64,000 nt of DNA from Opitutaceae bacterium. GTDB lineage: Bacteria > Verrucomicrobiota > Verrucomicrobiia > Opitutales > Opitutaceae. The DNA is taken from NCBI GenBank assembly GCA_015075305.1, contig JABTUS010000007.1:62001-126000 (forward strand), given 5' to 3'. Below, one piece after another: positions 19,753 to 42,025 of this stretch (position 1 is the stretch's first letter; each line of letters begins with the position of its first letter). Under the pieces are notes generated by a model. That model was not told where the DNA came from, searched no databases, and saw only the letters and a program-made list of their open reading frames with translations. A program made the translations under genes and the position numbers.

Positions 19753-22154
19753 AAGGCTTCCTTGCCGCCCTCGCAGTCGCGATTCTTGCAACGGGAGCCG
19801 CGTTCGCGCGCGATCCGTCATTCGTCCGCCCAAAGCAACTGGTCGGTGTTCGTTTTATCTACAAGAACACCGAGGTCTTTCAGGCCAATTTCGGTGGAGT
19901 TCCGCTTTCGGAAACCGGCTCCTCGGATGGCACGACACGCACGAGCGCTCCGATATATTTTTCAATGGAGCCGGGCCGCACCTACGGGCTCTCGTTTGTC
20001 TGGGCGCCGGATGAAAACTACTGCTACACCCAGTACTCTGGCACGGTCCGCGCCGAGTTCTTCGCCGATCCCGATACCGAAAGCCTGGTCAACGGCGCTC
20101 CGTTCGGATCCTCCCAAATGAGCGTGGAGTTCGATCCCTCCAATCCCGAGGCTTTCGTCGGAGGATGGCAGGTCCGGCTCGGCTCTCCTGTGGCCGTGTC
20201 ACCCGCGATCGGTCAGTCGCGTTCCCTCTCGCTGGGTGATGTCAACTGGGTGGCCAGCCTGGGAGTGGGAGCAACGTCGAAAGCGCTGGATCCGCTCGCG
20301 CTCGCACCGAACTGGGTCGCAACCTCGGGTCTCTCGCGCTCGAAACTGACAGCTCCCGCGGGGGGAGAAATCGAGGTGATCAACGAGCCCGTGGGGGAAC
20401 TGCGCCAAGTGGCGGTGCCGCAGGCATTGGTGGACATCCAGTCGATCAGCAATGGCCTTGAGATCCGCTTTTACGCCTGGTCGGCAAGCACCGGAAAGAG
20501 CGGCAATCTCTACACAATCGATTCCGCGGCGCAGCCAATGATCGTGCACCGGCTCACTCGTCCGGTTCCCTCTTCCGGCCATCTGGTGCATGCGCGGATT
20601 GTCGGAATCGACGAAGAAACCACCGAGATCGATCCGGTGGGTTCCAATACCTGGCGGCGCACGAGTCCTGGCGGCCTGGTGATCGAGGAGCGTTCCCAGT
20701 CAACCAACGCAGCCGGCAACATCGAGGAACTGCGCGTGTTCAAGGGACCGGACCTGGTCTCAGTCCGTGAAACGCTCTTTGAGTACCACGACTTTCCCTG
20801 GGGCCGCGAGGTCATCCGCCGGGTGGAGGATCCCGCCGGAGCAGCGCTCACCACGCAGTATGCGTTTTATGACACGCCATCGCAGATCGCCACGAATGGG
20901 CGGCTCAAGCATACGATCCTTCCCGATGGCAACTGGGTGCGACAGGAGTACCACCTGAGCGGTCCGGCCATGGGACGCGTGCAGCGGGTGCTGCGTCCCT
21001 GGCTTGATGCACCGAGCCACCCGGATCTCGCAACGCCTTCCAACTGCGTCGCCACAACCTATGCCTATGTCGCGGACTGGACGGGTGCTGTGCGTGCCGT
21101 GAGCGACGAGACAACGACCGTTCTGGGGACAACCACCCAGCGAACTGCGACGCAGTGGGATTTTTCCCAGACCGCGCAGTACCTTTTCGATGCGCCGCAA
21201 GGCCCGAGTGCTCCAATCACCGTTGCCACTGTTTCCCGTTATGCCGGCGCATCGGCTGCACCCGAGGTGAGCGTCATTAAAACCTTGCGCGCATCGGCAC
21301 CGACTCCGGCAAAGTTCTGGAACAAACCGGTCCAGATCGTGGCTCCCAATGGAGTCGCCGCCGATTACCGCTACCAGGTGGGCGTGTGGGATCCCGTGAA
21401 CGGAGTGTTCACGCCGAACGGATACTTTCCAACCGGGACCGACATCGCCGAATACTCGACACAGTCGCCCCTGATCGTGGGAAAGAGCCTGCGGACAGTC
21501 ACGGTGAAGGTCGCCGGGTTGCCGGTCCTGAACACAGTTTCAGTCTGGGATCACCCGTTTGGCCCCAATGGACAGGATCCCAACCAGCCTGCGACCTGGC
21601 TCCTCGTCTCGACGGAAGAGACCCAGTACAATGCGTCGTTGAAGCCGGTATGGCGGCAGCGCGGTCCACGGTATGATTGGAGCACGGGAGTCGCCTGGAC
21701 AGCCACCTATTCCGCGGAAGGGCGCCTCGACAAGGAGATTGGTGAAGATGGCGTGGATGTTCGCTACGTCTACGACGCCATGGGGCGCGCCACTCGAAAG
21801 ACGATCAAGGGCCAGGCGAATCCGAGCTACAATTCGATCACGCTTCCTGCGATTCCGGATCGGGCCTTTGACTTCACTTACGACGCCGCCAATCAGGTCG
21901 TGCAGGAAAAGATTTCAGGCGCTTCCGAATCGCTCGTCACCAACCATGTCTTCGACAAGGCTGGACGAAAAACACAGACCCGCGTGCCGGGTCCGTCAGG
22001 TCAACTGACGACGACATTCGGTTACTCGATGCTCGGCACCGGCGGCACACAGGTGACCGCCACGGCGCCCGACGGCGGCACGAGCATCCAGAAGACCTTC
22101 CGCGACGGCAGGAAATCCGCCGAGGAAGGCACGGCTCAGGTGAACCAGACATGA
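19749..22154 (+). CDS. Rhs protein 1, N-terminal part (to an in-frame TGA)
   Basis: First 801 residues of an exported Rhs/YD-repeat protein. AAAGGAGG sits eight bases before the ATG. A signal peptide (MKGFLAALAVAILATGAAFA) is followed by a ~300-residue domain without known match, then YD-type repeats (ETLFEYHDFPWGREVIRRV, DVRYVYDAMGRATRKTIKGQ). The frame ends at TGA 22152-22154 after ...AQVNQT and resumes in the same frame at once (TYQIAADGRLTTT). The third copy of the region, at 35020-35035, reads ACAGGACG where this one has ACATGAACG. This indicates an ancestral TGG (Trp), so the stop is probably a single G-to-A change or a base-call error. Without it the gene is 5808 nt, 1935 residues. Confidence 0.8.
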   Translation: MKGFLAALAVAILATGAAFARDPSFVRPKQLVGVRFIYKNTEVFQANFGGVPLSETGSSDGTTRTSAPIYFSMEPGRTYGLSFVWAPDENYCYTQYSGTVRAEFFADPDTESLVNGAPFGSSQMSVEFDPSNPEAFVGGWQVRLGSPVAVSPAIGQSRSLSLGDVNWVASLGVGATSKALDPLALAPNWVATSGLSRSKLTAPAGGEIEVINEPVGELRQVAVPQALVDIQSISNGLEIRFYAWSASTGKSGNLYTIDSAAQPMIVHRLTRPVPSSGHLVHARIVGIDEETTEIDPVGSNTWRRTSPGGLVIEERSQSTNAAGNIEELRVFKGPDLVSVRETLFEYHDFPWGREVIRRVEDPAGAALTTQYAFYDTPSQIATNGRLKHTILPDGNWVRQEYHLSGPAMGRVQRVLRPWLDAPSHPDLATPSNCVATTYAYVADWTGAVRAVSDETTTVLGTTTQRTATQWDFSQTAQYLFDAPQGPSAPITVATVSRYAGASAAPEVSVIKTLRASAPTPAKFWNKPVQIVAPNGVAADYRYQVGVWDPVNGVFTPNGYFPTGTDIAEYSTQSPLIVGKSLRTVTVKVAGLPVLNTVSVWDHPFGPNGQDPNQPATWLLVSTEETQYNASLKPVWRQRGPRYDWSTGVAWTATYSAEGRLDKEIGEDGVDVRYVYDAMGRATRKTIKGQANPSYNSITLPAIPDRAFDFTYDAANQVVQEKISGASESLVTNHVFDKAGRKTQTRVPGPSGQLTTTFGYSMLGTGGTQVTATAPDGGTSIQKTFRDGRKSAEEGTAQVNQT

Positions 22155-22247
22155 ACGTACCAGATCGCCGCCGACGGACGTCTCACCACCACGATTGCCG
22201 AAGGCACGCGCTGGGGGTCAACAACCGCCGACTGGCTCGGGCGCACC

Positions 22248-25200
22248 GTGGTCTCGACGCATCCGACACAGGCAGGCGGCACGTACGTCGAAACGCAGGA
22301 GTACAACAGCGCCGGCCAGCTTGTTGCCTTTGGGAACAGTTTCCCCGGATCCCGACCGACGCGGTACGTCTACAATGCGCTCGGAGAAAGGATCCGCGAA
22401 GGAGTCGACATGGACAACAATGGAACGCTCGATCCAGCCTCCGCGGATCGTATCACCGATTCGGATACGACGATCGGCTTTGTGATGTCCGGCCAGTGGC
22501 CGAACCAGTTGCCATCTCGCTCGGAACGAATCACCCGGATTCACACCTATGGGGTCACGGGAAGCGGCGCTGCGACCCTCCTCAGGGACACCCGCCAGAA
22601 GCTGGGGTGGTGGCTTTGGAATGAGCATGAATGGTCAAACGCCTCGGGGGATGTCGGTTCGTCGGTGCGAACCAGTGTGCGCAATGGAACCTGCAAGGTG
22701 ACAACCGTGACTGGCGCGCGGACCGAGGTTGCGGTCGAGGCCTCGGGGAAAACGCTGCGCACCGTTGCCGGGCCGGTCACGACGACGTTCCACTACGATG
22801 ATTGCGACAGACTGATCACCCAGACCGATGCACGCAAGGGCGACACCGAATTCGTCTACCTTGCGAACAGTGCCATGCTGAGCGCGATGATCGATCCGGC
22901 CGATCTGGCCGCGAGCCGCATCACCGAAGTCTACCAGTACAATGCTGCGGGACGCCGCGTCGCCACCACCGATGCGAAGAACCAGACCCGGCGCGTCGAG
23001 TATGACCTGCATGGCCGGGTTGTGAGGGAATGGGGATCCGCATCGTACCCGGTCGAACGCAGCTACTGTTCGTGCGGAAAGATCGTTGAACTGCGCACCT
23101 ACCGGGGAGGCACGGGCTGGAGCGGCGCCACTTGTCCAACCGCAACCACCGGCGCGTATGACCGGACGACTTGGACCTATGGATCGGCGACAGGGTTGCT
23201 TCTGGCCAAGACCGATGCTAACTCCATGAGCGTGACGTATGCGTATGACGCCGCCGGACGCATGAGCTCGCGCACCTGGGCGCGCGGGGTGGTGACGAAC
23301 TATGCCTACGATCCCCCCACCGGACAGCTCCTGTCGACAACCTATTCGGACGGCACGCCGGCAGTCACCTACACCTACGACCGCCGCGGGCGCATCGCCA
23401 CGGTTGTCGATGGCGTGGGCAGCCGCACGCTGAGTTACACAGCTTACGATCAACTCTCCAACGAGGCGCTGACCCTGACTGGATTCGGCACGGGATCGAT
23501 CGCATACACCCATGATGTCTATGGCCGGCGGACGCAGAGCTCGCCGATAATGCAGCCAACCGGCTCAACTGCGTTCGGGCAAGGGGTGAACTACGCCTAT
23601 GCAGCGGGAACCGGGCTCCTGTCCTCGGTCAGCGGACCGGCGACATTCACCTACTCGTATCTTGCGAATTCAGGGCTGCCGGCTTCGATCGGCGGAAGCG
23701 ACACAAAGGAGCTTACTTGGGCGGCGCATCGCGATGATCTCGTGTCGTATGACAATCGGTACAGTGGCGGGAGTTTCAGCGCGCACCGCTTCGAGTACAC
23801 CCGCGATGAGATTTCGCGCATTGCCACCGAAGCGCAGTACAAGGAGGACAGTCTGGTTTCCAGCATTCCCTTTGCGTACAATCCACGATCGGAACTGACA
23901 TCCGGTCCGGGGAGCGTCGTGGGCTATGACGAACAAGGCAACCGCGTGACGGGAAATGGAGCCGCCTATCAGGCCAATGCGCTCAACCAGTACACGGCGG
24001 TCGGCGGCAGCGCGTGGACCCACGATGCCGACGGCAATCTCCTCAGCAATGGCACGCAGACCAATGTCTACGATGCTGAGAATCGGCTCGTTCAGGTGAC
24101 AAAGGGCTCGATGATTCATAGCTTTGCCTACGACTATCGTCACCGGCTTGTGAAGCACTCGAGGAGTTGGCAGGGATCGAGCAATCCACCAGACACGTCG
24201 TGGCGACTCTATGACGGCGATCGCGCTGTCCTATGGTACGACTACGAGGGAGGCTACACAAGGACCGCGCAATACCTTTGGGGAAGGGACCTAGCCGGGC
24301 GGCACGCGAGCGGCGACGGCACGGGAGGATTGCTTGTGGTTTGGTCCAATGGAATCGGCTACCTGCCGCACTATGACGGACGTGGAAACATCTGGGGCTT
24401 CAGCGGCGGCTACAGCCGAAGCCTGAGCGCCTTCGGCGAGGTGGCATTCTATCCCAGTGGCCTGCCTGCCAACATGCCGATCGGTCTCCTCACCCACGCC
24501 CACGGAACCAAGGAGTACTTCTCGGACCTCGGGCTGTACAACTATGGCCGCCGGTTCTACGATCCGAAAAGCGGCCGCTTCATCGGCCGGGATCCGATTC
24601 AGGAAAACGGAGGATTGAATTTGTACGCATTCGTGAGAAACAATCCGGCGAACCGGTGGGACTATTTGGGGATGAAGTATGGCGACACATACATAGATGA
24701 TGAAAGGATTCCGTTCGGATTCTATGATGTTGGCGATGGAATCCACGCATGTCCTTATGGATCTTCGTGGGATGGTCTCTATTCATGCCGCAAAGACGAA
24801 TCTGCTCCTAAGGGTCCTCGTAGTGGAGCCGTCGAAATGCCAGTATTCAACGCAGACGGATCTCGCTTTAATAGATTTTCGTTGGATACTTCCGGCGCAG
24901 GACGCTTCAGGTTTCCCGACTCGGACATACAGTATGGACAGATTGATTTGTCGGGAGACGCAGGAGCAGGACCGACAAATGCTTCTCCAATTCCTCCTTG
25001 CGAACAAAACATTGGAGACGGGTTCTCAGTAAGCGGAAAATTGGGTGAGGCCACCCGCCTGACACATAGAGATTTCAACGATGCTTTGGCGCTTCTAAAG
25101 GACACGAAACCTGTTTACTTCGAAAGTGTTATCAGCAAGTTGATACTTTCGACCTATTCGGGTGCAACCGATGTGACCAAGAGTTATTCGGGTTATAGTA

Positions 25201-26301: not shown

Positions 26302-26611
26302 GGTCAAACCAAAGGGGTCAGTCCGTACTTCTTGTATTGACAGGACGATTAGGAGTTGGGAGCAAGGGAGGTGGCAAGAGAAACGACGGTGGAGGTCAAG
26401 AGGGCGTGTTATCACGTGATCAGCAGGGGCAACTACCGTGGGTGGATATTCAGAGAGCGCGCTTTTTCACAGCACAGGTCTGCCGCAGTTTCCGCGTGAT
26501 CCACCCGCACACTCGCAAGATTGATTGCGTGACACATCCACCTCATGGTTGCCATTCATCTTCACTTCCCTCTGCCGGTGAATGTTAGAAGTAAGGACTG
26601 ACCCCGTTAGT
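26302..26611 (+). mobile_element. RAYT-derived miniature element, copy 1
   Basis: A ~310-bp unit nearly identical to 34510-34818. It has 19-bp terminal inverted repeats with one mismatch: GGGGTCAGTCCGTACTTCT at 26314-26332 and AGAAGTAAGGACTGACCCC at 26587-26605. Inside it encodes the start of a REP-associated (Y1/IS200-like) transposase, MEVKRACYHVISRGNYRGW, after which the protein loses the HUH catalytic region. It is therefore non-autonomous. It separates a transposase fragment from the truncated 5' end of Rhs 2. Confidence 0.75.
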
Positions 26612-26751
26612 ACCCCTCCGCGACCCTCCTCAGGGACACCCGCCAGAAGCTGGGTTGGTGGCAGAAGCTGGAGTACGAATGGGCCGGCGCCTCGGGCGAT
26701 GTTGGTGTCTCCGAGCGCCAGAGCAAACTCGACAATTCAGGCACGACAAAA

Positions 26752-30301: not shown

Positions 30302-31705
30302 TTACACTTTCAGGCTATGGCTTGGAACGAAGAAGCCCTCATGGAACAGAAGCATCGGTTTGGTTCTCCACGGAATCGTGTGGGTAGCGCCTGAGGGAAG
30401 AAGGGGCGCGAGGTCGAGCTTGCCGCAGAAAAAGAGGATGCGGGCGCGGTAGTTTTCGAAGCGGCGGAAGCCGCGGGCATCGGCCTTGATGGCTTGGATC
30501 TTGGAGTTGAAGCCCTCGGTGAGGGCATTGGTGATCGGGTGCTGGAAGTACGTCAGAAGATTCACCAGATGGCTTTGAGGGTGCGGGCCACGGCCATCAC
30601 CTTCGGCAAACGGCTGCGCATGACGGTGCGGTACCACTTGGGAGAAGAAGCGTTCGCCGCTGGCCGCGTCCGACTGGCTCCAGAACTCCACCATCTGCCC
30701 TTGTACAACCAGCCCGGGAGGTCATTTCAGGTTCGAAGCTGGCCTGATGCTTCCGGCAGCTCGGCGAAGTCCGTTTGAGAGTCCTGATGCTTCTCCGGCG
30801 GGTCGGTGCCATGCAGCCACTTCAACCGCTGCGCCCGGCAGGCACTCCACAGGAAATCGCCTGGTGTCCCCGTCCAAGCACCAGATACCGAGTCTGCTTG
30901 AGAGTCCTGTCGCCGTTCGCGCCAGCTTGGCCGCCTCCTGCCGGCGGGTCTGGTCGACCGCCTCGTTGAGGTGCTTGGAGACGGAAACGGTCATGGACGA
31001 TCGCAGCCTGCGGAGCGGCGATCCGGGTGGCAGCCGCAAAGTTCGCCCTATGTCCATGGCGGCGGCCTCCACTTTCAACCGCTGCGCCTCGGCAGGCACT
31101 TCCACAGGGCAATCGCCCGCTCGGTGTCCTGTCCAAGCACCACGTCCAGCACCCGCGACTGGCCGAGGTCGGTCATCAGCGAAACGTAACTTTGGCCTCG
31201 CAGAAAACTCTTCATCGAGGCCGACTCGACGGAGTCCTCCGTGTCTGTCGAGCCAGGCCCCGCTCCACGGCCCGCTCGATCAGCCGTTGACGCTTGTCCC
31301 AATGCAGTCGCAGCAAATCTGCGGCCCGCGTCAGCGACCGACAGGCCGCGATCACCGCCACCGCAAAGGCTTCAAAGTGGAACGTGAAGCGCGAGCCCGG
31401 CTCTGCCCACGGCACCGTCACCGTCTTCACCCCGTGCTCGGGCAGGCGCACCGCGGCACCCCCACAGCGCAGTTCCAGAAGGTACCGCATCACACCCAGG
31501 TGCCGCCACGTCCCTCCGGCAACCGGTCGCACACCGGGCACGGCTTCCCGCACTCGGGGCATGCCACCGGTGTCCGCTCCGGCCACGCCACGCAGATCGT
31601 GACCCGCTCCCGTTCCAGATCCTTTTCCACGTTCGTCACCCTCCAAGGCTTCTCGAGTTTCAGCAGCTGGCGGTAATGCTCGTTGACGGTTTCTTCCATC
31701 CTCAC
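30302..31705 (-). pseudogene. ISL3-family transposase, decayed by frameshifts
   Basis: Read from 31705 downwards, pieces in different frames together give an ISL3 transposase. The N-terminus has a zinc-binding CPECGKPCPVCDRLPEG. Next comes the helix-turn-helix region (EHGVKTVTVPWAEPGSRFTF), then the catalytic core (SFLRGQSYVSLMTDLGQSRV), and the C-terminus HPITNALTEGFNSKIQAIKA ending at 30302. At least four frame changes separate them, so no functional protein is made. At 30265-30300 the motif CCGGGGACAT(A/G)GGT occurs twice and may belong to another element end. Confidence 0.8.
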
Positions 31706-31740
31706 ACATTAACCGCCCAGACCCTTTCCCACAACCAAAC

Positions 31741-31860
31741 GTGAAGAACCATCGGTTTGTCAGTCTCGCGGCCACGGGCCGCTTCACGTTTACGGAATTG
31801 TGCGCGGACTTTCACGTCAGTCGGAAGACCGGCCACAAGTGGTGGAAGCGTGAGGTGGAC
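31741..31860 (+). pseudogene. N-terminal fragment of an IS481-like transposase
   Basis: About 40 residues with a helix-turn-helix typical of integrase-core transposases (FTFTELCADFHVSRKTGHKW). Similarity ends after KREVDPG, and no catalytic DDE domain follows. Between 31860 and 32096 I see no further gene. Confidence 0.5.
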
Positions 31861-32096
31861 CCCGGAAACTGGACAGGACGGATCGTTAACCGAAACTCGA
31901 AAAAAACGATCCACATTGGACAACGACGAAGTCACTTCCGTGGTGACGGCAATTATACTTCCCTGTTTGTTGCAGTAAGATTCGAGGGGAGTAGGGGAGT
32001 GAAGATCCCCCCAGTCTGCTCCTGAAAGAGATCCAAAAGGATCGGGGTGGAGAGGGTGGGGAGGCGGGTGTGCCCTGCCTCTCCCCACCTCTGAGG

Positions 32097-32248
32097 TTAA
32101 TCCTGACGTTTCTTGGGCGTACGCTGGGTATCGCCGGTAAACTCAAGGATAGTGGCGTGATGGACTAGGCGGTCGACGGCGGCCATGGTGGTCATGGGAT
32201 CCTTGAAGATCTGGTCCCACTGGGAGAAAACCAGATTCGAAGTGAAAT
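32097..32248 (-). pseudogene. C-terminal fragment of an IstB-like ATPase (IS21 family)
   Basis: The last ~50 residues of an IS21 helper ATPase are visible: SNLVFSQWDQIFKDPMTTMA, then AVDRLVHHATILEFTGDTQR and a stop at 32097. The Walker motifs and the partner transposase IstA are absent. The fragment ends exactly where the 33-bp repeats begin at 32246. Confidence 0.75.
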
Positions 32249-32311
32249 CATTCCCACGGGGACGGCCCCTAACCTTTGAATCATTCCCACGGGGACGGCC
32301 CCTAACCTTTG
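32246..32311. repeat. Exact tandem 33-bp repeat (two units)
   Basis: The unit AATCATTCCCACGGGGACGG-CCCCTAACCTTTG occurs at 32246-32278 and 32279-32311. Diverged single copies lie at about 32577-32610, 32924-32955 and 33296-33325. Each is followed by the same partial Rhs module, so the repeat marks module boundaries. There are no spacers, so it is not a CRISPR array. Confidence 0.8.
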
Positions 32312-33325
32312 TGGTATTCGAGATGACCTCGGATACTCCAAGAGGGGCACGGCCTATGCCGACTATGGCGACGCTACCAACCGCCAGTTTGCCTACAATG
32401 GACGCGGCGAATTGACCGCGGGGATCGGCTACCTCGGTACGAATGCGATGAGCCAAGCCGCTCCGCTGCCGGGTCTCCGCCATGAATACGCCTACGATTC
32501 CATCGGCAACCGGCAGTGGTCCAACAGCACCGGCGTGAGCGCGCTGCGCGACGATTACACGGCCAATGCGCTCAATCAGTCATTTCCACGGGGTCAGCCC
32601 CTAACGTTTGTGGTATTCGAGATGACCTCGAATACTCCAAGAGGGGCACGGCCTTTGCCGACTATGGCGACGCCACGTACCGCCAGTATGCCTACATTGG
32701 ACGTGGCGAATTGACCGCGGGCATCGGCTACCTTAGCACCAATGTGACGAGCCAGGCCGTGCCGCTGCCGGGTCGCCGCCATGAATGCGCCTACGATTCC
32801 ATCGCCAACCGGCAGTGGTCCAACAGCACAGGCGTGAGTGGGCTGCGCGACGAAGGAAATTCGAGAGGATTTTGCCGCCCCTTCAGGGCTCTCTGTTTTG
32901 GTTCACCTATGAACCCATGGCGAGCTATTCCCACGGGGGCGGCCCCTAACCTTTGTGGTGACCGAGAAGACGGGAACGCCCGAGGAGGGCACAGCCTGTG
33001 CCGACTATGGCGGCGCCACAAACCGCCAGTTTGCCTACAATGGGCGCGGCGAATTGACGGCGGGCATCCGCTGCCTTGGCGCGAATGTTACGAGCCAGGC
33101 CGGGTCGCTGGCATCGCACCGGCAATGGGAAATTTCACTCGGATCAGTGAGCGATTGCTGAGTGCATCGACAATTGAGAGCAGATTGTTCGATGCCGAGA
33201 GGGAGTTGGGCCAGCGGCGTCTTGTGACGTACGTCCCCTGGGCATGACGAAGTGCGCCCCTCCATTCTTTTATTGTAGAGGCTCAGCCAAAAGAGTCATT
33301 CCCATGGGGTCGGCTCCTAACCTTT
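32312..33325 (+). pseudogene. Array of partial Rhs YD-repeat modules
   Basis: Three incomplete copies of one Rhs module lie at 32312-32580, 32611-32850 and 32956-33120. Each encodes a variant of TAYADYGDATNRQFAYNGRG, then ELTAGIGYLGTN and HEYAYDSIGNRQWSNSTGVS. Copies are in different frames and none has a start. A palindromic repeat separates modules two and three (32855-32930). The segment 33120-33295 carries another dispersed repeat, TCGATGCCGA...GCGGCGTCTTGTG, also found near 39515-39560. The fourth module continues into the longer Rhs frame at 33350. Confidence 0.7.
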
Positions 33326-33349
33326 GTGGTGTTCGAGATGTCTTAATGA

Positions 33350-34594
33350 ATGCCGCAGGAGGGCGCTGCCTATGCGGACTATGGCGACGCCACGTATCGC
33401 CAGTATGCCGACAATGGACGTGGCGAATTGACCGCGGGGGTCGGATACCTCGGCACGAATGTGACGAGCAAGGCCGCGCCGCTGCCGGGTCGCCGCCATG
33501 AATACGCCTGCGATTCCATCGGCAACCGGCAGTGGTCCGACAGCACCGGCGTCAGCGGACTGCGCGACGACTATACTGCCAATGCGCTCAACCAGTACGT
33601 GGCGCGCGAAAACAACACGCTCTCCCTGTCTGGCACTGCTACGACCGATTCGGTCGTGGCGGTCAAGGGCCGCACGGTGACGGCTGGGCGGCAGGGGCGA
33701 TTCTGGAGCGATGAGGTGACAGTCCCGAATGTCCTCGGTCCGTGGGCGGGTCCGCTTTCGGTCTACGCCACGAAGTCGGCGGCCGGGAGCAATGTGATGC
33801 GCATCGACTCGCGCGCGGCGCAGTTGCCCGCGGTCTCGCAGAGCTTCAGTCGCGACCTCGATGGCAACACGCTCTCGGATGAGATCTGGGACTACCAGTG
33901 GGATGCCGAGAACCGGCTTGTCCGCCTGGAAACAACGGTCGCAGCCAGAAGCGCAGGCTTCGCGCATCGCATCCTCAACTTTACGTATGACTACCTCGGA
34001 CGTCGCGTGCAGAAGCAGGTGATGGACGGCGTCACCTCGACGGAACTGTCCTCCCAACGCTTCATCTACAACGGCTGGGACGTGATCGCGGAATATTCCG
34101 TGTCGGCGGGCACAACCCTCGACAAGCTCCAGCGCACGTATGCGTGGGGCATTGACCTTGCGTCATCGCTGACAAAGGCTGGCGGCGTGGGCGCCCTGCT
34201 GCAATTCGCGAACACGCCAACCGGCCAGACCTACCTGCCGACCTACGACGGCAACGGCAACGTGGCGTCATTGGTCAACCTTGGCACCGGAGCCCTCGCC
34301 GCGTCCTACGAATACACCCCCTTCGGCGAAATGCTCCGCTACGAGGTGCTGGATAACGCCGTCAGCACGTATGCGTTCAAGTTCTCGACCAGGTGGCGGG
34401 ATGCGGAGACAGGCTGGTCATATTATGGGAGAAGGTACTATGATGCGAGGATGGGGCGGTTCGTCGGAAGGGATCCAATTGGGGAGGAAGGTGGGATCAA
34501 TCTGTATGAGGTCAAACCAAAGGGGTCAGTCCGTACTTCTTGTATTGACAGGACGATTAGGAGTTGGGAGCAAGGGAGGTGGCAAGAGAATTGA
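33350..34594 (+). CDS. Rhs protein 3, partial core of a different Rhs lineage
   Basis: A 414-residue frame, of which residues 1-386 are Rhs. After the shared module it reads LNQYVARENNTLSLSGTATT and WDYQWDAENRLVRLET, and reaches the core signature SYYGRRYYDARMGRFVGRDP. This sequence differs clearly from Rhs 1 and 2. It ends at GGINLYE because the miniature element enters at 34510; the last 28 residues come from that element. Both the N-terminal shell and the toxin tip are missing, so it is not expected to make an active toxin. Confidence 0.75.
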   Translation: MPQEGAAYADYGDATYRQYADNGRGELTAGVGYLGTNVTSKAAPLPGRRHEYACDSIGNRQWSDSTGVSGLRDDYTANALNQYVARENNTLSLSGTATTDSVVAVKGRTVTAGRQGRFWSDEVTVPNVLGPWAGPLSVYATKSAAGSNVMRIDSRAAQLPAVSQSFSRDLDGNTLSDEIWDYQWDAENRLVRLETTVAARSAGFAHRILNFTYDYLGRRVQKQVMDGVTSTELSSQRFIYNGWDVIAEYSVSAGTTLDKLQRTYAWGIDLASSLTKAGGVGALLQFANTPTGQTYLPTYDGNGNVASLVNLGTGALAASYEYTPFGEMLRYEVLDNAVSTYAFKFSTRWRDAETGWSYYGRRYYDARMGRFVGRDPIGEEGGINLYEVKPKGSVRTSCIDRTIRSWEQGRWQEN

Positions 34595-34818
34595 GGATGG
34601 AGTTTAAGAGGACGTGTTATCACGTGATCAGCAGGGGCATCTACCGTGGGTGGATATTCAGGGAGCGCGCCTTTTCACAGCACAGGTCTGCCGCTGTTTC
34701 CGCGTGATCCACCCGCACACTCGCAAGATTGATTGCGTGACACATCCACCTCATGGTTGCCCTTCATCTTCACTTCCTTCTGCCGGTTAATGTTAGAAGT
34801 AAGGACTGACCCGTTAGT
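34510..34818 (+). mobile_element. RAYT-derived miniature element, copy 2
   Basis: Nearly identical to 26302-26611, with the same GGGGTCAGTCCGTACTTCT left terminus and AGAAGTAAGGACTGACCC right terminus, and the same remnant of a REP-associated transposase start (TGTTATCACGTGATCAGCAG). It joins the tail-less Rhs 3 core to the middle of a third copy of the Rhs 1 core. It was either inserted there or served as the recombination point. Confidence 0.75.
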
Positions 34819-37500
34819 GCCCCTTCGACAAGGCTGGACGAAAAACACAGACCCGCGTGCCGGGTCCGTCAGGTCAACTGACGACGACGTTCGCTTACTC
34901 TATCCTTGGTGCTGGCGGCACACAGGTGACCGCCACGGCGCCCGACGGCGGAACCAGCATTCAGAAGACCTACCGCGACGGCAGGAAATCCGCCGAGGAA
35001 GGCACGGCTGAGGTGAACAAGACAGGACGTACCAGATCGGTGCCGACGGACGTCTCACTACAACCGTTGCCGAAGGCACGCGCTGGTCAACAACCGCCGA
35101 CTGGCTCGGGCGCACCGTGGTCTCGACGCATCCGACACAGGCAGGCGGCACGTAGTCGAAACGCAGGAGTACAACAGCGCCGGCCAGCTTGTTGCCTTGG
35201 GAACAGTTTCCGGATCCCGACCGACGCGGTACGTCACAATGCGCTCGGAGAAAGGATCCGCAAGGAGTCGACATGGACAACAATGGAACGCTCGATCCAG
35301 CCTCCGCGGATCGTATCACCGATTCGGATACGACGATCGGCTTTGTGATGTCCGGCCAGTGGCCGAACCAGTTGCCATCTCGCTCGAACGAATCACCCGG
35401 ATTCACACCTATGGGTCACGGGAAGCGGCGCTGCGACCCTCCTCAGGGACACCCGCCAGAAGCTGGGGTGGTGGCTTTGAATGAGCATGAATGGTCAAAC
35501 GCCTCGGGGGATGTCGGTTCGTCGGTGGAACCGGTGTGCGCAATGGAACCTGCAAGGTGACAACCGTGACTGGCGCGCGGACCGAGGTTGCGGTCGAGGC
35601 CTCGGGGAAAACGCTGCGCACCGTTGCCGGGCCGGTCACGACGACGTTCCACCGATGATTGCGACAGACTGATCACCCAGACCGATGCACGCAAGGGCGA
35701 CACCGGATTCGTCTACCTTGCGAACAGTGCCATGCTGAGCGCGATGATCGATCCGGCCGATCTGCCGCGAGCCGCATCACCGAAGTCTACCAGTACAATG
35801 CTGCGGGACGCCAGGCGCCACCACCGATGCGAAGAACCAGACCCGGCGCGTCGAGTATGACCTGCATGGCCGGGTTGTGAGGGAATGGGGATCCGCATCG
35901 TACCCGGTCGAACGCAGCTACTGTTCGTGCGGAAGATCGTTGAACTGCGCACCTACCGGGGAGGCACGGGCTGGGCAGCGCCACTTGTCCAACCGCAACC
36001 ACCGGCGCGTATGACCGGACGACTTGGACCTATGGATCGGCGACAGGGTTGCTTCTGGCCAAGACCGATGCTAACTCCATGACGTGACGTATGCGTATGA
36101 CGCCGCCGGACGCATGAGCTCGCGCACCGGCGCGCGGGTGGTGACGAACTATGCCTACGATCCCCCACCGGACAGCTCCTGTCGACAACCTATTCGGACG
36201 GCACGCCGGCAGTCACCTACACCTACGACCGCCGCGGGCGTCGCCATGGTTGTCGATGGCGTAGGCAGCCGCACGCTGAGTTACACAGCTTACGATCAAC
36301 TCTCCAACGAGGCGCTGACTCTGATTGGATTCGGCACGGGGTCGATTGCATACACCCATGATGTCTATGGCCGGCTGACGCAGAGTTCGCCGATGATGCA
36401 GCCCACCGGCTCAACTGCGTTTGGCCAAGGGGTGAACTATGGATACGCCGCTGGCACCGGCCTTTTGTCCTCGGTCAGCGGACCGGCGACATTCACCTAC
36501 TCGTACCTCGCGAATTCAGGGCTGCCTGCTTCGATCAATGACAATTCCAGTCAATCAAAGGTACTCACCTGGGCGGCGCATCGCGATGATCTCGTGTCGT
36601 ATGACAATCGGTACAGTGGCGGGAGTTTCAGCGCGCACCGCTTCGAGTACACCCGCGATGAGATTTCGCGCATTGCCACCGAAGCGCAGTACAAGGAGGA
36701 CAGTCTGGTTTCCAGCATTCCCTTTGCGTACAATCCACGATCGGAACTGACATCCGGTCCGGGGCGTCGGGCTATGACGAACAAGGCAACCGCGTGACGG
36801 GAAATGGAGCCGCCTATCAGGCCAATGCGCTCAACCAGTACACGGCGGTCGGCGGCAGCGCGTGGACCCACGATGCCGGAAATCTATCAGCAATGGCACG
36901 CAGACCATGTCTACGATGCGGAGAATCGCCTCGTTCAAGTGACAAAGGTTCCGATGGTTCTGGCTTCGCCACCGACTACCGCCACCGGCCTTGAGCACCG
37001 GCTATTGGCAGCCGTGGGGCGGTTACGGGCTACAGCCGGCAGGCACCATGGCGTCTGTGCGATGGCGACCGTGTCGCTTTGCGGTACGACACCGTGGGAG
37101 GCTACACGCAGACCGCGCAATACCTATGGGCGGGACTCGCCGGGCGGCATGCGAGCGGCGACGGCACCGGAGGATTGCTCGTGGTGGGTCAATGGAATCG
37201 GCTACCTGCGCACCATGACGGACGCGGAAACATCTGGGCTTCAGCGGCGGCTACAGCCGAAGCCTGAGCGCCTTCGGCGAGGTGGCATTCTATCCAGTGG
37301 CCTGCCCGCCAGCATGCCGATTGGCCTCCTCACCTACGCCCACGGAACCAAGGAATACTTTTCGGATCTTGGGCTGTACAACTATGGCCGCCGATTCTGA
37401 CCCAAAACCAGCCGTCATCGGCTGGACCAGATCAGGAAAACGGCGGCTTGAATTTGTATGCCTTCGTGAGAAACAACCCGGCGAATTTGTGGGATTATCT
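34819..37500 (+). pseudogene. Third copy of the Rhs 1-type core, many one-base deletions
   Basis: Starts at TTCGACAAGGCTGGACGAAA, equal to 21951 in Rhs 1, and can be followed through RRF(Y)DPK near 37390 to LNLYAFVRNNPANLWDYLGM. Outside the gaps it is close to identical to Rhs 1 and 2. The gaps are almost all one- or two-base deletions, often in homopolymers, for example CCTTTGGG to CCTTGGG and TTTCCCCGG to TTTCCGG near 35200. No long frame survives except 36084-36797. Either this is a real pseudogene or a poorly polished consensus. If the gaps are errors, it would be a third full-length core with its own tip. Confidence 0.75.
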
Positions 37501-38346
37501 GGGGATGATTGAAGATGGGATGTGTTGGTCAGTCTTCACTGCTAGCAGTGCCATGCGGATCAACACTCGATACGGGTATGACGATGGATCCGGTTTTGTG
37601 ACTTCTCACGGAGGCCGATATTTTGAAAGGCGGATGGGACAATGCTGTGAAGCTTGAACTTTTGTTGTAGAGCTCTGATGGCGACCTCCCTCAGTTGAAA
37701 TCAACTCGACGGTGTTTGAGCCTCCACGAAACAATGCCGGATCAACATTTCTGGATACATGGGGGTGGCGGGTTCCTCAAAACAAGAGAGCAGAGGAGGC
37801 ACCACTCGATTTGATGAAGAAAACTCTGTGGAACTGAAGCAGGTCGAGCACTTGTGGAGGCTCTACAGAACGGTAGTCACTGTTCGCGAGGTGGCGTCAG
37901 ACCAGCTCTTCGAATTCCAAGCAGCGACAGCCATGACTGCAGGGACATCGAATGAAGCGACAGGAGTAATCTATTGTTTCCGTAACTATCAGATCTCGCA
38001 AACACATTAGCGAACTCGGTTCAATTACGGTGGTTCGACTGTTGACTTGAGCTTCGACGCTAATCCACGAGACTTTGCACTCAATAATCCGGCTCCTCCA
38101 GGCCGTTCCAGCGGGTCAAACTGGGCGATCTGAAGAAGCATTGGTGCGGCAGCTGACAGATCGAGCGCTTCGAGCAATCTTCCAAACTCGGCTCCAGACA
38201 GGTTCAAAACTATCTCGGCACAGTGCCGAATCACGGACGAACTTGGCGACCGGAAAGCCACCAATGATTACAGAAGAGCACCAGTTGATCTGTCGCAGCT
38301 AGATGCGGCTTCGTCGGAACTCAACGGTTGGGACTGCGCTAAATGA
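37501..38346 (+). pseudogene. Third Rhs toxin tip, frame broken
   Basis: After the core the sequence reads GMIEDGMCWSVFTASSAMRI and soon loses frame. Later coding-like pieces are VDLSFDANPRDFALNNPAPP (from about 38038) and, ending the region, RKATNDYRRAPVDLSQLDAA followed by SSELNGWDCAK and TGA at 38344-38346. It shares nothing with tips 1 and 2 and lacks their linker. I recognise no toxin family. The TGA overlaps the ATG of the next gene, as for tip 2. Confidence 0.5.
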
Positions 38347-38688
38347 ACTCCAACGTGCTCAGAGCTGTTTGGATTGCGGTCGTCTGTTGTGCAGCCTGAG
38401 GGCGGACAGCATCAGAATCGAAAGACCTCGAAGTGAAGCTGCAGATGAATGGTCTTAGCACTCGCCGGAAAGCGGCGCTCGAATGGTGGCAAAACGGGCG
38501 ACAGGTTTCCCCGAGTTCCGTGTCGCCCCAGGCCGGAATTGATGAGGATCGTTTTCGAAGATAAGGCGATAATACGTGCTCATGAAGATGGAAAGACGTG
38601 GTTTGCGGCGCACCGTGATCGTCCGACCTACTGGGAAGTCAGCATGCCAACGCGCGCGATTACTCGCTACGTCGCTGTTGGTGCCTGA
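38343..38688 (+). pseudogene. Broken exported gene, candidate immunity for tip 3
   Basis: The ATG at 38343 overlaps the stop of the third tip (ATGA). It starts a signal-peptide-like MNSNVLRAVWIAVVCCAA, then meets TGA at 38397. Coding character resumes in the same frame (SKDLEVKLQMNGLSTRRKAA), then in another frame (MRIVFEDKAIIRAHEDGKTW) ending at 38688. The tight overlap plus export signal copies the arrangement of the two other tip-immunity pairs. The frame breaks lie in the deletion-rich stretch and may be sequence errors. Confidence 0.45.
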
Positions 38689-38779
38689 AGCGCGGTGTGG
38701 GAAGTGAGATTCGTCTATCCTGCGACTCTGCGTCATTCCCATCGTCGGCCCATACATACGATGCGCCGTTTCGCTCGAC

Positions 38780-39310
38780 AGTATTGCAGGAAGGCACGGC
38801 TACGGATTATGGCGACGCCACCAACCGACAGTTTCCTACAATGGACGCGAATTGACTCGCACGGCACCTTGGCACGAATTGACAGCCAGGCCGCCTCGCC
38901 AGTGCCGCCAAGAATACTACGATTCCATCGGCAACCGGCAGGTCCAACAGCACCGAGTCAGCGGGCTGCGCGACGAGGCAAACTCGAGGAGAAATGTACC
39001 GCCTTCAGGGCTCTCTTTTCGGTTCACCGTGACCATGCCAGGCTGGGGATATGGCACCTGCCCGATTTCCGACTCGTCGCTCACCTCGAACCATCGCTCG
39101 CCATCTGTAGGGATGTATCGCCCCGTGGTGAAGGCATTCAGTACTGTCTACAATGGCCGCGGGGAATTGACCGCGGGCATCGGCTACCTCGGCACCAATG
39201 TGACAAGCCAGGCCGTTCCGCTGCCGGGTCGACGCCATGAATACGCCTACGATTCCATCGGCAACCGTCAGTGGTCCAACAGCACCGGCGTTAGCGGGCT
39301 GCGTGACGAA
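38780..39310 (+). pseudogene. Further partial Rhs modules with interspersed repeat
   Basis: Two more copies of the module seen at 32312 occur here: about 38788-38975, with many one-base gaps, and 39150-39307, clean (ELTAGIGYLGTNVTSQAVPL, HEYAYDSIGNRQWSNSTGVS). A gapped copy of the palindromic repeat (AACTCGAGG...TTCAGGGCTCTC) lies between them at about 38980-39060. No start or stop signals support expression. Confidence 0.6.
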
Positions 39311-39311
39311 G

Positions 39312-39500
39312 CAAACTCGAGAGAATTGTGCCGCCCCTTCAGGGCTCTCTGTGTTCGGTTCACCCGTGAACCCATGGCGTCGCCATGGGCTGGGGATATG
39401 GCGCCCCTTTGGGGCTCCCAATTCCGACTCAGTCGCTCACCTCGAACCCATCGCTTCGCCATCTGCAGGAGATGTATCGCCCCGTTGGGGCTGAGGCATG
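39312..39500. repeat. Dispersed palindromic repeat, clean copy
   Basis: Contains CCGCCCCTTCAGGGCTCTCT, a GGTTCACCCGTGAAC inverted block, the perfect palindrome CCCATGGCG-T-CGCCATGGG at 39371-39389 and GCGCCCCTTTGGGGCTCC. Same family as the tandem units at 18481-18910 in reverse orientation. It follows each Rhs module copy at GTGACGAAGCAAACTCGAG, so it may have inserted once before the modules were copied. Confidence 0.65.
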
Positions 39501-39594
39501 TCAGTGCAACTTGAGGTCACATTGTGCGATGCCGATGGGGAATTGAACCGGCGGCGTCTTGTGGGTGAAAATTTTTGGGGCTTTCCTTACTTAT

Positions 39595-39905
39595 GACATT
39601 GCATGATTGAGTGAAGTGAAAATGAGTTTGAGGCAGGAGGAGGGTGTGTCAGGTGATCGATCGGGCGAATGTAGGACTGGAGGAGGGGCGCTGGACCCTG
39701 TGCTGCGAAGAAGCGCTGGTGCCAGGAACATGCTTGGTCGATCATGGAAGCCGGTGTCACCTGATGGTGGACATGCGAGCGAGATTCCCCAGGCCAACGA
39801 TGCAATTGTTGCTGCACTTTGCTTCATTTCAGCGTTCGTTTTCTCAACTAGGTCTTGCAGTAAGGACTGACCCCGGTGCCTCGCGCTGACCCCGGTGCCT
39901 CGCGC
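39595..39905 (+). mobile_element. Decayed RAYT/REP element remnant
   Basis: A frame beginning near 39633 reads EEGVCQVIDRANVGLEEGRW and HLMVDMRARFPRPTMQLLLH, resembling a REP-associated transposase with the HUH motif lost (SRCHLMV where NHxHL is expected). It ends in AGTAAGGACTGACCCC, the same terminus as the two miniature elements, followed by a tandem CTGACCCCGGTGCCTCGCG at 39867-39904. The match is weak and the assignment tentative. Confidence 0.4.
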
Positions 39906-40063
39906 CGGGCTCGATCGGATCCGAGGTGGAACGAAGCTCACGGCGGCAGCTTCATCCAGCCGACTCTCGGCCGCCCACTGAGCCAAGTGCTCCTGGCCTG
40001 TCTTGCGATTCAGAATGTTAACGGGCTGATGTCGTTTTAGCGTCTTTAGGGTCTAGCTTGAAT

Positions 40064-40083
40064 TTAGAACTCCTGAGTTCTAA
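40064..40083. promoter_or_regulatory. Perfect palindromic operator upstream of hipB
   Basis: TTAGAACTC-CT-GAGTTCTAA is a perfect inverted repeat with 9-bp arms, ending 10 bases before the hipB ATG. HipB proteins bind such palindromes to repress their own operon, so this is the likely autoregulatory site. Confidence 0.75.
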
Positions 40084-40093
40084 CCTCCTGTTC

Positions 40094-40378
40094 ATGAATT
40101 ACGCCGTTTCCACTCCCGCGCAGCTGCGAACCGTGTTGCGTGCGCTGCGCGACTCCCGAGGCCTGAGTCAGGCACAGCTCGGCGACCGCATTGGGGTAAG
40201 CCAGCGTCGGATTGCCACCATCGAGGCTTCGCCCGGCCGGGCCAGTTTTGACCAGCTTTCACGGATTGTTGCAGCGCTCGGGGGGCGATTGGCCATCAAC
40301 GATCTTCCCGCCAAAGCCAACTCCGTCGACCGCAGGCAAACGACCCAAGCGATGCGTTCGGAAAAGGGGGACTGGTAG
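40094..40378 (+). CDS. hipB: HipB-like antitoxin, XRE-family DNA-binding protein
   Basis: 94 residues from the ATG at 40094; an upstream TTG at 40058 would place the operator inside the gene and is rejected. The helix-turn-helix is at about residues 23-48 (GLSQAQLGDRIGVSQRRIAT), followed by the FDQLSRIVAALGGRLAI helix-strand typical of HipB, which places the protein for contact with HipA. It neutralises the kinase encoded next and represses the operon through the palindrome just upstream. The hipA ATG follows after one base. Confidence 0.88.
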   Translation: MNYAVSTPAQLRTVLRALRDSRGLSQAQLGDRIGVSQRRIATIEASPGRASFDQLSRIVAALGGRLAINDLPAKANSVDRRQTTQAMRSEKGDW

Positions 40379-40379
40379 C

Positions 40380-41684
40380 ATGGCGGCCTCTTCCGCTCTC
40401 ACGGTTTGGATGAATGGACTGCGAGTGGGAACGTGGTCCATCGTCAGGCACGTTCACGTTTTGGAGTACGACACTGCGTGGCTCGGATCGCCGGCCGGCC
40501 GGCCTCTGTCGTTGTCACTGCCGTTTACACCGCGCAATGAGCCGATTCGCGGAGCGAAGGTGGAGCACTATTTCGACAATCTGCTGCCTGACGCTGCCTC
40601 CATCCGCGGCCGGATCCGCTCGAAATTCGGCACGAGGTCCACCGACGCCTTCGATCTTCTCAGGGAAATCGGCCGCGATTGTGTCGGGGCCGTTCAACTA
40701 TTGTCTGACGGCGAAACACCGTCCGGTTTCGACCGTATCGACGCCGAGCCGCTCAGCGAGCGCCGCGTCGAGGAACTGATTGCCGGCGGTCTCTCGCCAG
40801 CGCGGGTCATGGGGCAGGATGGCGAGACTGACTTTCGAATATCCATCGCCGGCGCACAGGAGAAAACAGCGCTCCTCTTTCACAAAGGCAGGTGGTGCCG
40901 GCCTCGCGGTGCAACTCCGACCACGCACATCTTGAAGCTGCCACTTGGACTTGTCGGTCATTTGCAAATGGACATGCAGGGATCGGTGGAGAACGAATGG
41001 CTCTGCTCCCGTCTGATGCAGCGCATGGGTCTGAACACCGCGCGATGCGAGATCGTGGAGTTCGGCATGCGGAAAGTCCTCGCCGTTGAGCGGTTTGATC
41101 GGCGCTTCCAACGTTCAGATTGGATTGCGCGTCTTCCCCAGGAGGATTTTTGCCAGGCTCTCGGGCTGCCGGGCACGATGAAATATGAGGGCGATGGCGG
41201 TCCGGGCATGAGGGATATCCTGCGGGTGCTCGATGCCAGTTTGGCTCCCTTCGAAGACAAGCGTGCCTTCCTTAAAGCTCAGATGGTTTTCTGGCTGCTC
41301 GCAGCAACCGACGGCCACGCGAAGAATTTTTCCATTTTTATCGAGCGAGGCGGCGGCCATCGGCTGACTCCTTTCTACGACGTACTTTCTGCCTGGCCAA
41401 TCATTGGCCGGGGCCCGAATCACCTCGATTGGCGCAAGGCCAAACTTGCCATGGCGGTGCGCGGCAAAAGTGTGCATTGGAAAATGAGCGAAATTGGAAT
41501 GCGGAGTTGGGACGCAACCGCTCGGCTCGCCGGCCTGGGAAGAAGTGCGGAACTGTTCGCGGAGATTGCCGCTGCCGCGCCCATCGCAGTAGAAGAGGTC
41601 GACCGCGAGATTGAGTCCGGATTTCCCGCTCAGATCCGCGACAAGATCTTCGAGGGATTTCTGAAGGCAGTCCGCGCTCTATGA
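40380..41684 (+). CDS. hipA: HipA-family Ser/Thr kinase toxin
   Basis: 434 residues, full length for HipA. HipA of E. coli phosphorylates glutamyl-tRNA synthetase and induces growth arrest; the target here is not known. The HipA N-terminal subdomain spans about 8-110. The ATP-binding loop ISIAGAQEKTALL is at 155-167, the catalytic ATDGHAKNFS has Asp311 and Asn316, and FYDV supplies the metal-binding Asp334. GAAAAGGGGG lies before the ATG. All key residues are present, so the kinase should be active when not bound by HipB. Confidence 0.9.
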   Translation: MAASSALTVWMNGLRVGTWSIVRHVHVLEYDTAWLGSPAGRPLSLSLPFTPRNEPIRGAKVEHYFDNLLPDAASIRGRIRSKFGTRSTDAFDLLREIGRDCVGAVQLLSDGETPSGFDRIDAEPLSERRVEELIAGGLSPARVMGQDGETDFRISIAGAQEKTALLFHKGRWCRPRGATPTTHILKLPLGLVGHLQMDMQGSVENEWLCSRLMQRMGLNTARCEIVEFGMRKVLAVERFDRRFQRSDWIARLPQEDFCQALGLPGTMKYEGDGGPGMRDILRVLDASLAPFEDKRAFLKAQMVFWLLAATDGHAKNFSIFIERGGGHRLTPFYDVLSAWPIIGRGPNHLDWRKAKLAMAVRGKSVHWKMSEIGMRSWDATARLAGLGRSAELFAEIAAAAPIAVEEVDREIESGFPAQIRDKIFEGFLKAVRAL

Positions 41685-42025
41685 AAAGTAGTCGGCGTCC
41701 AAAGCCGGACTCGTGCGTGGGGCCGAAACTCCGCATCCAGATCGAAGGGCACGCATCGATCTCCTCAAAATGGGTTCAACTTTATTTTGATTGCACCAAC
41801 AACTTTGTCTTACGCGCAGGCACTCACTTTACCCGCTGATTTATATCGGCTCGATGACCTTGTTTTCCTCGTCTCGGACTTTGGTATTTGCGTTGGATAG
41901 AACGGTTTGGCGACCATCTGACGCATCCGGAAATCCTCCTTTCCAGCCGTGGGATTGGACATGTAGACGGTTCGCTTCGCACCTGCTCTCCGGCTCGATC
42001 GCGATACGTTTGGACGGGGAGCTGC
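41685..42025. other. Intergenic, no recognisable gene
   Basis: Between hipA and the attachment region I see only short frames without similarity to anything I know. No promoter, RNA or strong hairpin stands out. Confidence 0.4.

Follow-up and report, generated by a model that had tools for sequence, protein, structure and literature searches.

The leader core GGGGTCAGCCCCTAACCTTTGTGGT, which precedes a series of Rhs gene fragments in an Opitutaceae genome (assembly GCA_015075305.1), is the terminal inverted repeat (TIR) that belongs to a RAYT/TIRYT-type Y1 (HUH) tyrosine transposase, and our analysis suggests that in this lineage the TIR core was probably joined to a small piece of an Rhs gene and that the resulting chimera spread as non-autonomous repeats. 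The fragments lie in the 64,000-nucleotide stretch of DNA that was analysed (hereafter the window; contig JABTUS010000007.1, positions 62,001 to 126,000 of the forward strand), where a leader of about 31 bp stands in five copies before four Rhs fragments over the span 32248-33570 (copies at 32249-32278, 32282-32311, 32581-32610, 32926-32955 and 33297-33326). A sequence-only reading of this DNA had described five such copies, two of them an exact tandem, each leading a copy of one Rhs module. This observation of repeat-led Rhs units is confirmed: no copy is expected by chance (0 in 100 shuffles against 5 observed), and copies 0 and 1 are an exact tandem with a 33-bp period. The last four copies are each followed directly by an Rhs stretch of up to about 300 bp, but the first is a bare duplicate without a module of its own. 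The reading frames of the four Rhs units do differ, alternating between two frames. The features of the array and its flanks (window coordinates) are:

32097-32240, minus strand: C-terminal fragment of an IS21-type IstB, just before the first leader copy (Pfam IstB_IS21, 47 aa, E 7.5e-11)
32248-32280, plus strand: leader copy 0, which forms the exact 33-bp tandem with copy 1 and leads no module
32281-32344, plus strand: leader copy 1, TIR core CGGGGACGGCCCCTAACCTTTGTGGT and linker
32345-32579, plus strand: Rhs fragment 1, ending at ...CTCAATCAG where leader copy 2 interrupts it
32580-32643, plus strand: leader copy 2
32644-32853, plus strand: Rhs fragment 2
32857-32922, plus strand: tail A, a hairpin-rich dispersed repeat, truncated here and full-length elsewhere
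32925-32971, plus strand: leader copy 3
32987-33110, plus strand: Rhs fragment 3, short, type B
33111-33173, plus strand: type-B middle segment, diverged (by eye against the intact C1:254980 and C8:233832)
33174-33278, plus strand: END3, a REP-like dispersed repeat downstream of the Rhs piece
33279-33295, plus strand: R2 (second TIR type), probable remnant (GCTCAGCCAAA..., by eye)
33296-33340, plus strand: leader copy 4
33361-34508, plus strand: Rhs fragment 4, extended by a long Rhs core that closes with Rhs_assc_core and lacks a toxin tip
34515-34827, plus strand: R3 (third tyrosine-transposase family), TIR and 5' part, truncated, replacing the Rhs tip
38733-39126, plus strand: chimeric unit, indel-rich, with a shortened leader variant, an Rhs fragment and tail A
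39145-39563, plus strand: Rhs fragment, leaderless, with tail A and a partial END3

Against the 274-nt reference, three of the Rhs copies behind the leaders give matches of 100, 90 and 75%, and the copy behind the leader at 32926 matches query positions 5-190 at 81%. Leader copy 2 interrupts unit 1 where its Rhs part reads ...NALNQ, the truncated hairpin-rich tail closes unit 2, and unit 3 is a short type-B Rhs piece followed by the END3 dispersed repeat; these three units hold 124-235 bp of Rhs core, without a tip or an immunity gene. The last leader had been said to open into a longer Rhs core, and unit 4 does so, its leader running into a 414-aa Rhs frame that carries an Rhs core domain at its end (NCBIfam TIGR03696, 57 bits, cut-off 32.5). 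Where the tip of this frame should follow, there is instead the 5' end of a tyrosine transposase, itself truncated. Both further modules reported downstream are present, at about 38793 and 39145, but neither carries the 33-bp leader, the former having only the shortened variant at about 38733 and the latter beginning at module position 110-112. The array is surrounded by the IstB fragment, a fragment of an ISL3 transposase (30302-30694) and large Rhs genes, and the truncated R3-type transposase remnant occurs, at 95% identity, at two Rhs borders (26302-26620 and 34510-34827, the latter replacing the Rhs tip).

The identity of the leader core emerges from the transposase genes with which it occurs. 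There are five Y1_Tnp matches in the window's own genome (G000; positions given as C1:, C2: and so on), one of which (G000:C2:110390-110671) is preceded by AGGGTCAGCCCCTAATGTTTGTGGTC and followed by the inverse of GGGTAGCCCCTAATCTTTGTGGTC, and carries a close copy of the leader core. This gene scores 40.3 bits against Y1_Tnp (cut-off 23) and 52.8 bits against NCBIfam REP_Tyr_transpos, which is below that profile's cut-off of 80. Local alignment of upstream with reverse-complemented downstream DNA showed inverted TIRs flanking the transposase ORF at all nine loci tested (three of the five own Y1_Tnp matches and six loci from Opitutae MAGs), each above its 200 shuffles. The HUH motif, as RNHYH or GNHYH, is likewise present in 9/9 of these loci; a Y-x-x-LNP stretch would hold the catalytic tyrosine. 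On one side or both, all six MAG loci bear the core GGGGTCAGCCCCTAAC..TTTGTGGT, and their TIRs have GGGGTCAG, which fits the motif GGGGWSAS; in the own C2 gene the corresponding sequences, AGGGTCAG on the upstream and GGGGGTAG on the downstream side, are both off that motif. The core forms a stem of 4 bp, with ATTA or GTTA before GGGG on the hairpin strand, and an inverted pair of cores is found in the own genome at C3:86504-86581. The other two own genes tested have TIR types of their own, R2 and R3, and the window array holds a remnant of R3 and, by eye, a probable remnant of R2.

Outside this genome the core is independent of Rhs. An exact-match scan of one genome per species (84,980 species, from which the window's own genome may be left out) found it in 13 stretches, which come from 8 assemblies whose titles all name Opitutae or Opitutaceae MAGs. 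A transposase lies beside the repeat in 6/13 of these stretches, not counting three non-transposase-like frames that a loose motif had flagged (L167 at 2043, L170 and L171), and tblastn (E 1e-3) within 1.5-8 kb around the core found Rhs in 0/13. Viral contigs gave no match to the exact core pattern.

Within the own genome, the association with Rhs depends on how much of the leader is considered. The longer form (26 nt including the 5' CCCAC, at most 3 mismatches) occurs at ten places, the bare tandem copy and one copy separated from Rhs by R2 among them, and 10/10 are at Rhs pieces, so the extended leader belongs to the chimera rather than to the transposase. The 21-nt core (at most 3 mismatches) has 20 matches, 12 at Rhs pieces and 8 not, against 0 forward matches and 1 reverse match for a control pattern read backwards, and the 25-nt core pattern has 16, of which 7 are at Rhs and 9 elsewhere, the latter including two that are TIRs of the transposase itself. 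The sequence-only reading had asked whether the repeat always sits at Rhs starts and had named scatter independent of Rhs as evidence against itself; the longer form stays with Rhs throughout, but the core is scattered independently of it. With gaps of up to 76 bases allowed, in own-genome stretches chosen because they bear a match, 21/30 leader matches adjoin an Rhs piece and 21/30 Rhs pieces adjoin a leader, the remaining 9/30 Rhs fragments in the stretches examined standing without one. Module DNA is found at 31 places in the own genome, over which 21 leader-Rhs chimeras with a sharp left end and varied tails are scattered. The proposal that copying or recombination, rather than random decay, produced the array is made plausible by these counts, and the earlier interpretation is in this respect partly supported. 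R2 is also found joined, at four places, to one and the same internal point of the Rhs piece, module position about 199-201 (C1:252277, C8:12717, C2:58965 and C9:76622 of G000) and to the leader (C1:456602, C1:459348 and C8:212971 of G000).

Among 37 relatives searched, the Rhs stretch was found in three congeners, whose matches run from module position 67-68 to the query end; additional matches were one in G008 from position 135 and a weak one in G014. The leader core (at most 3 substitutions) is absent from four congener stretches that bear the Rhs stretch, and the chimera is therefore lineage-specific among the genomes searched. Where the leader would lie, open Rhs frames (two own and three from relatives, 205 to 2039 aa) read ...YTYDARR(F/Y)RST(V/A)L(Q/K)EGTA(Y/F)ADYGDAT. 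As the open frames of this genome and of its congeners carry this other sequence at the leader's place, the leader is not an ordinary piece of the Rhs coding sequence; had it been one, this would have counted, by the earlier reading's own account, against that reading.

The chimera copies share a left end at TCATT and a passage into Rhs at about position 65, beyond which there are three continuations: Rhs to position 274 and then tail A, Rhs to about position 192 and then the B segment, or a longer Rhs core. Two copies (C2:59351-59409 and C7:12021) have an internal Rhs deletion in common. In a set of 22 left ends, 5 of which share an upstream R2 element and are hence non-independent, mean pairwise identity is 0.24-0.27 in the left flanks out to -5, 0.44 at -5 to -1, and 0.66-0.70 over the first five bases of the chimera; the 22 copies thus have the sharp left end at unrelated sites that is expected of a mobile non-autonomous element. 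NAG stands just before the left end in 14/22 copies, often as GAG or TAG (counts kept as computed, with the left ends of C1:459368 and C6:54307 extrapolated and 1-2 bases off), and the GAG may be either a target preference or the element's own edge.

On the right-hand side, the DNA downstream of the pooled END3 copies is unrelated (identity 0.26-0.32), and several END3-bearing chimeras share, by eye, further sequence beyond END3 (GTGCGGAAATCGACGATCGCGAGCGCT...). With the right end assumed at END3, a check for target duplication in seven copies showed no excess, the mean longest shared word being 4.14 versus 4.07 for mismatched pairs. No inverted repeats of at least 25 nt are present in the window from 31000 to 42000, where no partner TIR was seen. 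At the one site used for an empty-site comparison (C13:43k), the left-hand gene is conserved in 9/9 congeners, and in the four congener loci examined its neighbour to the right shows no synteny within 1.5 kb (BLAST, both strands). Secondary structure had been raised as a possible feature of the leader, which folds no better than shuffles (z -0.26); the hairpin tail A folds somewhat better than shuffles (z -2.24). Tail A is also dispersed alone, with 64 matches in the own genome, and the END3 core has 45 sites in the examined own-genome stretches alone. A known structured RNA was considered for the tail and rejected, as the only matches to Rfam at gathering thresholds, in the window plus four loci, were three to group II introns, none in the window; these lie in two stretches that contain chimeric copies as well (L064 12570-12845 and 14379-14466; L076 4105-4192). 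The END3 core GGTCACGACRAAGCGYGCCCCTCCA constitutes a separate REP-like family that occurs in both orientations (e.g., G000:C1:306320-313739) and in places as close inverted pairs, and tail-A pieces recur at an exact 203-bp period at G000:C5:410867-411338 (410867, 411070 and 411273).

The substitutions in the Rhs pieces were examined by codon position (positions 1/2/3; the indel-rich copy C7:100792 was left out, and type-A sets comprise six strict or eight copies). Changes private to one module copy are evenly spread (25/20/22, p 0.75), indicating neutral decay of the copies, which speaks against the array having been maintained as cassettes. Changes common to at least two of 22 rows, relatives included, favour third positions (17/14/60), which indicates that the Rhs pieces came from several coding alleles or were gene-converted. 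Shared variants number 5/3/19 in the six strict type-A copies (p 2e-4) and 0/3/2 in four type-B copies, changes unique within class, not always evenly spread, number 19/14/30 in eight type-A copies (p 0.04) and 13/7/23 in type B (p 0.01), and those unique within all 16 leader copies number 27/22/38 (p 0.10). Relative to the intact copy C6:187239, the differences are 58/43/185 for the modules and 20/14/98 for the relatives (Fisher p 0.056). The Rhs piece diverges more than the noncoding tail A in 21/28 pairs (median 0.143 vs 0.097), and the tree of the Rhs fragments is poorly resolved (4/20 inner branches well supported). The Rhs interiors therefore seem to descend from several coding alleles, via repeated joining at one junction or gene conversion from Rhs genes, followed by neutral decay. 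A single burst of one frozen chimeric unit is contradicted by the third-position shared variants and by the gap in divergence between Rhs and tail.

We infer from the TIR the manner in which the chimera spread. The TIR, of which the leader core is a copy, is REP-like and marks the ends of a Y1/HUH family that is RAYT-related and of TIRYT type; it was probably joined to an internal piece of about 210 bp from a YD-repeat Rhs gene with hairpin-rich or REP-like dispersed repeats downstream. The chimera probably then multiplied to some 20 sites as non-autonomous units whose left end is sharp and commonly follows GAG or TAG, and several units would have been stacked head to tail at a decaying Rhs- and IS-rich locus. 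It may have been made or moved by the transposase's single-strand cut-and-join at the TIR, and the several coding Rhs alleles in the units could stem from gene conversion with real Rhs genes or from repeated capture. Single-strand cut-and-join is the most likely route to spread with precise left ends, recombination alone being less likely.

That alternative, in which homologous recombination or gene conversion among dispersed repeats and Rhs paralogues left the units as debris and no chimera was ever moved by a transposase, is nevertheless a real possibility, if a distinctly less probable one, and the evidence against a simple burst is what keeps it in contention. Divergence differs between segments of one unit, the shared Rhs variants resemble coding alleles, support in the tree is low, copies of the TIR core, R2, tail A and END3 exist that are not at Rhs, and the pooled END3 copies and the END3-bearing chimeras point to different right ends, all of which such debris would explain. 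Recombination between short repeats would, however, tend to carry flanks along or to vary the junctions, and the same leader-Rhs junction and sharp left end recur at about 20 scattered sites whose left flanks are unrelated. The stops and frame shifts in some modules might likewise be taken for random decay of a single Rhs gene amid chance repeats, but with no leader copies expected by chance and 21 leader-Rhs units genome-wide this explanation is refuted.

A store of silent cassettes, in which displaced C-terminal modules serve as donors for tip switching and the leader as the recombination site, was rejected as very improbable. Orphan or silent modules have been described at rhs loci in the accessible part of PMC3150448, leader-led Rhs cores are present at window position 33296 and at C1:456602 and C1:459348, and the 10/10 placement of the longer leader form at Rhs would suit such a store. 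Against this, the short cores of window units 1-3 have neither tip nor immunity gene, the long core in the window ends in a transposase fragment at the tip position, the private mutations look neutral, and the core repeat also occurs without Rhs. Rhs core fragments are stacked at an Rhs locus here as in the orphan Rhs/CdiA C-terminal modules of that source (as far as its accessible part goes), but no toxin C-terminal domain with an immunity gene was found in the window units, which differ further in their neutral private decay and genome-wide scatter. The array looks like a curiosity of genome decay rather than a working cassette system.

Among known systems, the parent of the leader agrees with TIRYT/TIRtron elements, having a Y1/HUH transposase, flanking inverted TIRs and GGGGWSAS. 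According to the accessible part of PMC3733652, the TIRs of these elements are unrelated to GTAG REPs, form dispersed families and in some cases carry the GGGGWSAS motif. The likeness extends to the Y1 transposase with an HUH motif, the flanking inverted TIRs with GGGGTCAG (PMC3733652, in the same part) and the additional dispersal of TIRs singly and as an inverted pair, whereas the TIR copies of this genome are in many cases fused to part of a coding gene and to a tail, an arrangement that the same part of PMC3733652 does not describe. As in REP/REPIN/RAYT systems, dispersed hairpin repeats are tied to a transposase gene and form mosaic units (PMC3116915, PMC6006769, PMC8266576, in their accessible parts). 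A canonical GTAG REP, defined in the accessible text of PMC6006769 by GTAG or GTGG lying 0-2 nt on the 5' side of a stem with 7 bp or more, was rejected as the identity of the leader core, which has a 4-bp stem and no GT[AG]G tag; nor do the module units form inverted doublets. With no inverted pair of at least 25 nt between 31000 and 42000, the array units are not REPINs, the inverted pair of cores lying elsewhere. Among the papers listed by searches of the open-licence literature, mostly seen as abstracts, none was found to report REP or TIR repeats joined to pieces of Rhs.

The joining of transposon ends to host gene fragments, which are then multiplied, recalls Helitron and Pack-type capture in eukaryotes, as far as the accessible descriptions of these go, with the difference that the present case is bacterial and Y1 and that capture by transposition is only proposed. 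The Helitron transposase is Rep/Hel, unlike Y1. A full bacterial counterpart, in which the Y1/HUH transposase took Rhs pieces repeatedly from different alleles by one-ended or read-through single-strand processing at the TIR and the chimeras still exchange with Rhs genes, appears to us unlikely; were such capture by the transposase true, it would offer a bacterial system for studying gene-fragment capture. The spread of TIR-led chimeras would connect HUH transposases of a little-studied class with the multiplication of pieces of coding genes within a bacterial genome, and serves as a warning that repeat-led Rhs fragments need not be silent cassettes.

Beside the array, a third Rhs copy (window 34823-37508) differs from 21950-24675 by 139 substitutions in 2665 aligned bases and by 44 deletions, mostly of 1-3 nt, versus only 7 insertions. 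These indels reflect either deletion-biased decay or an unpolished assembly, and the module at 38793 looks similar. Of the 44 deletions, 19 are located beside an identical base or unit.
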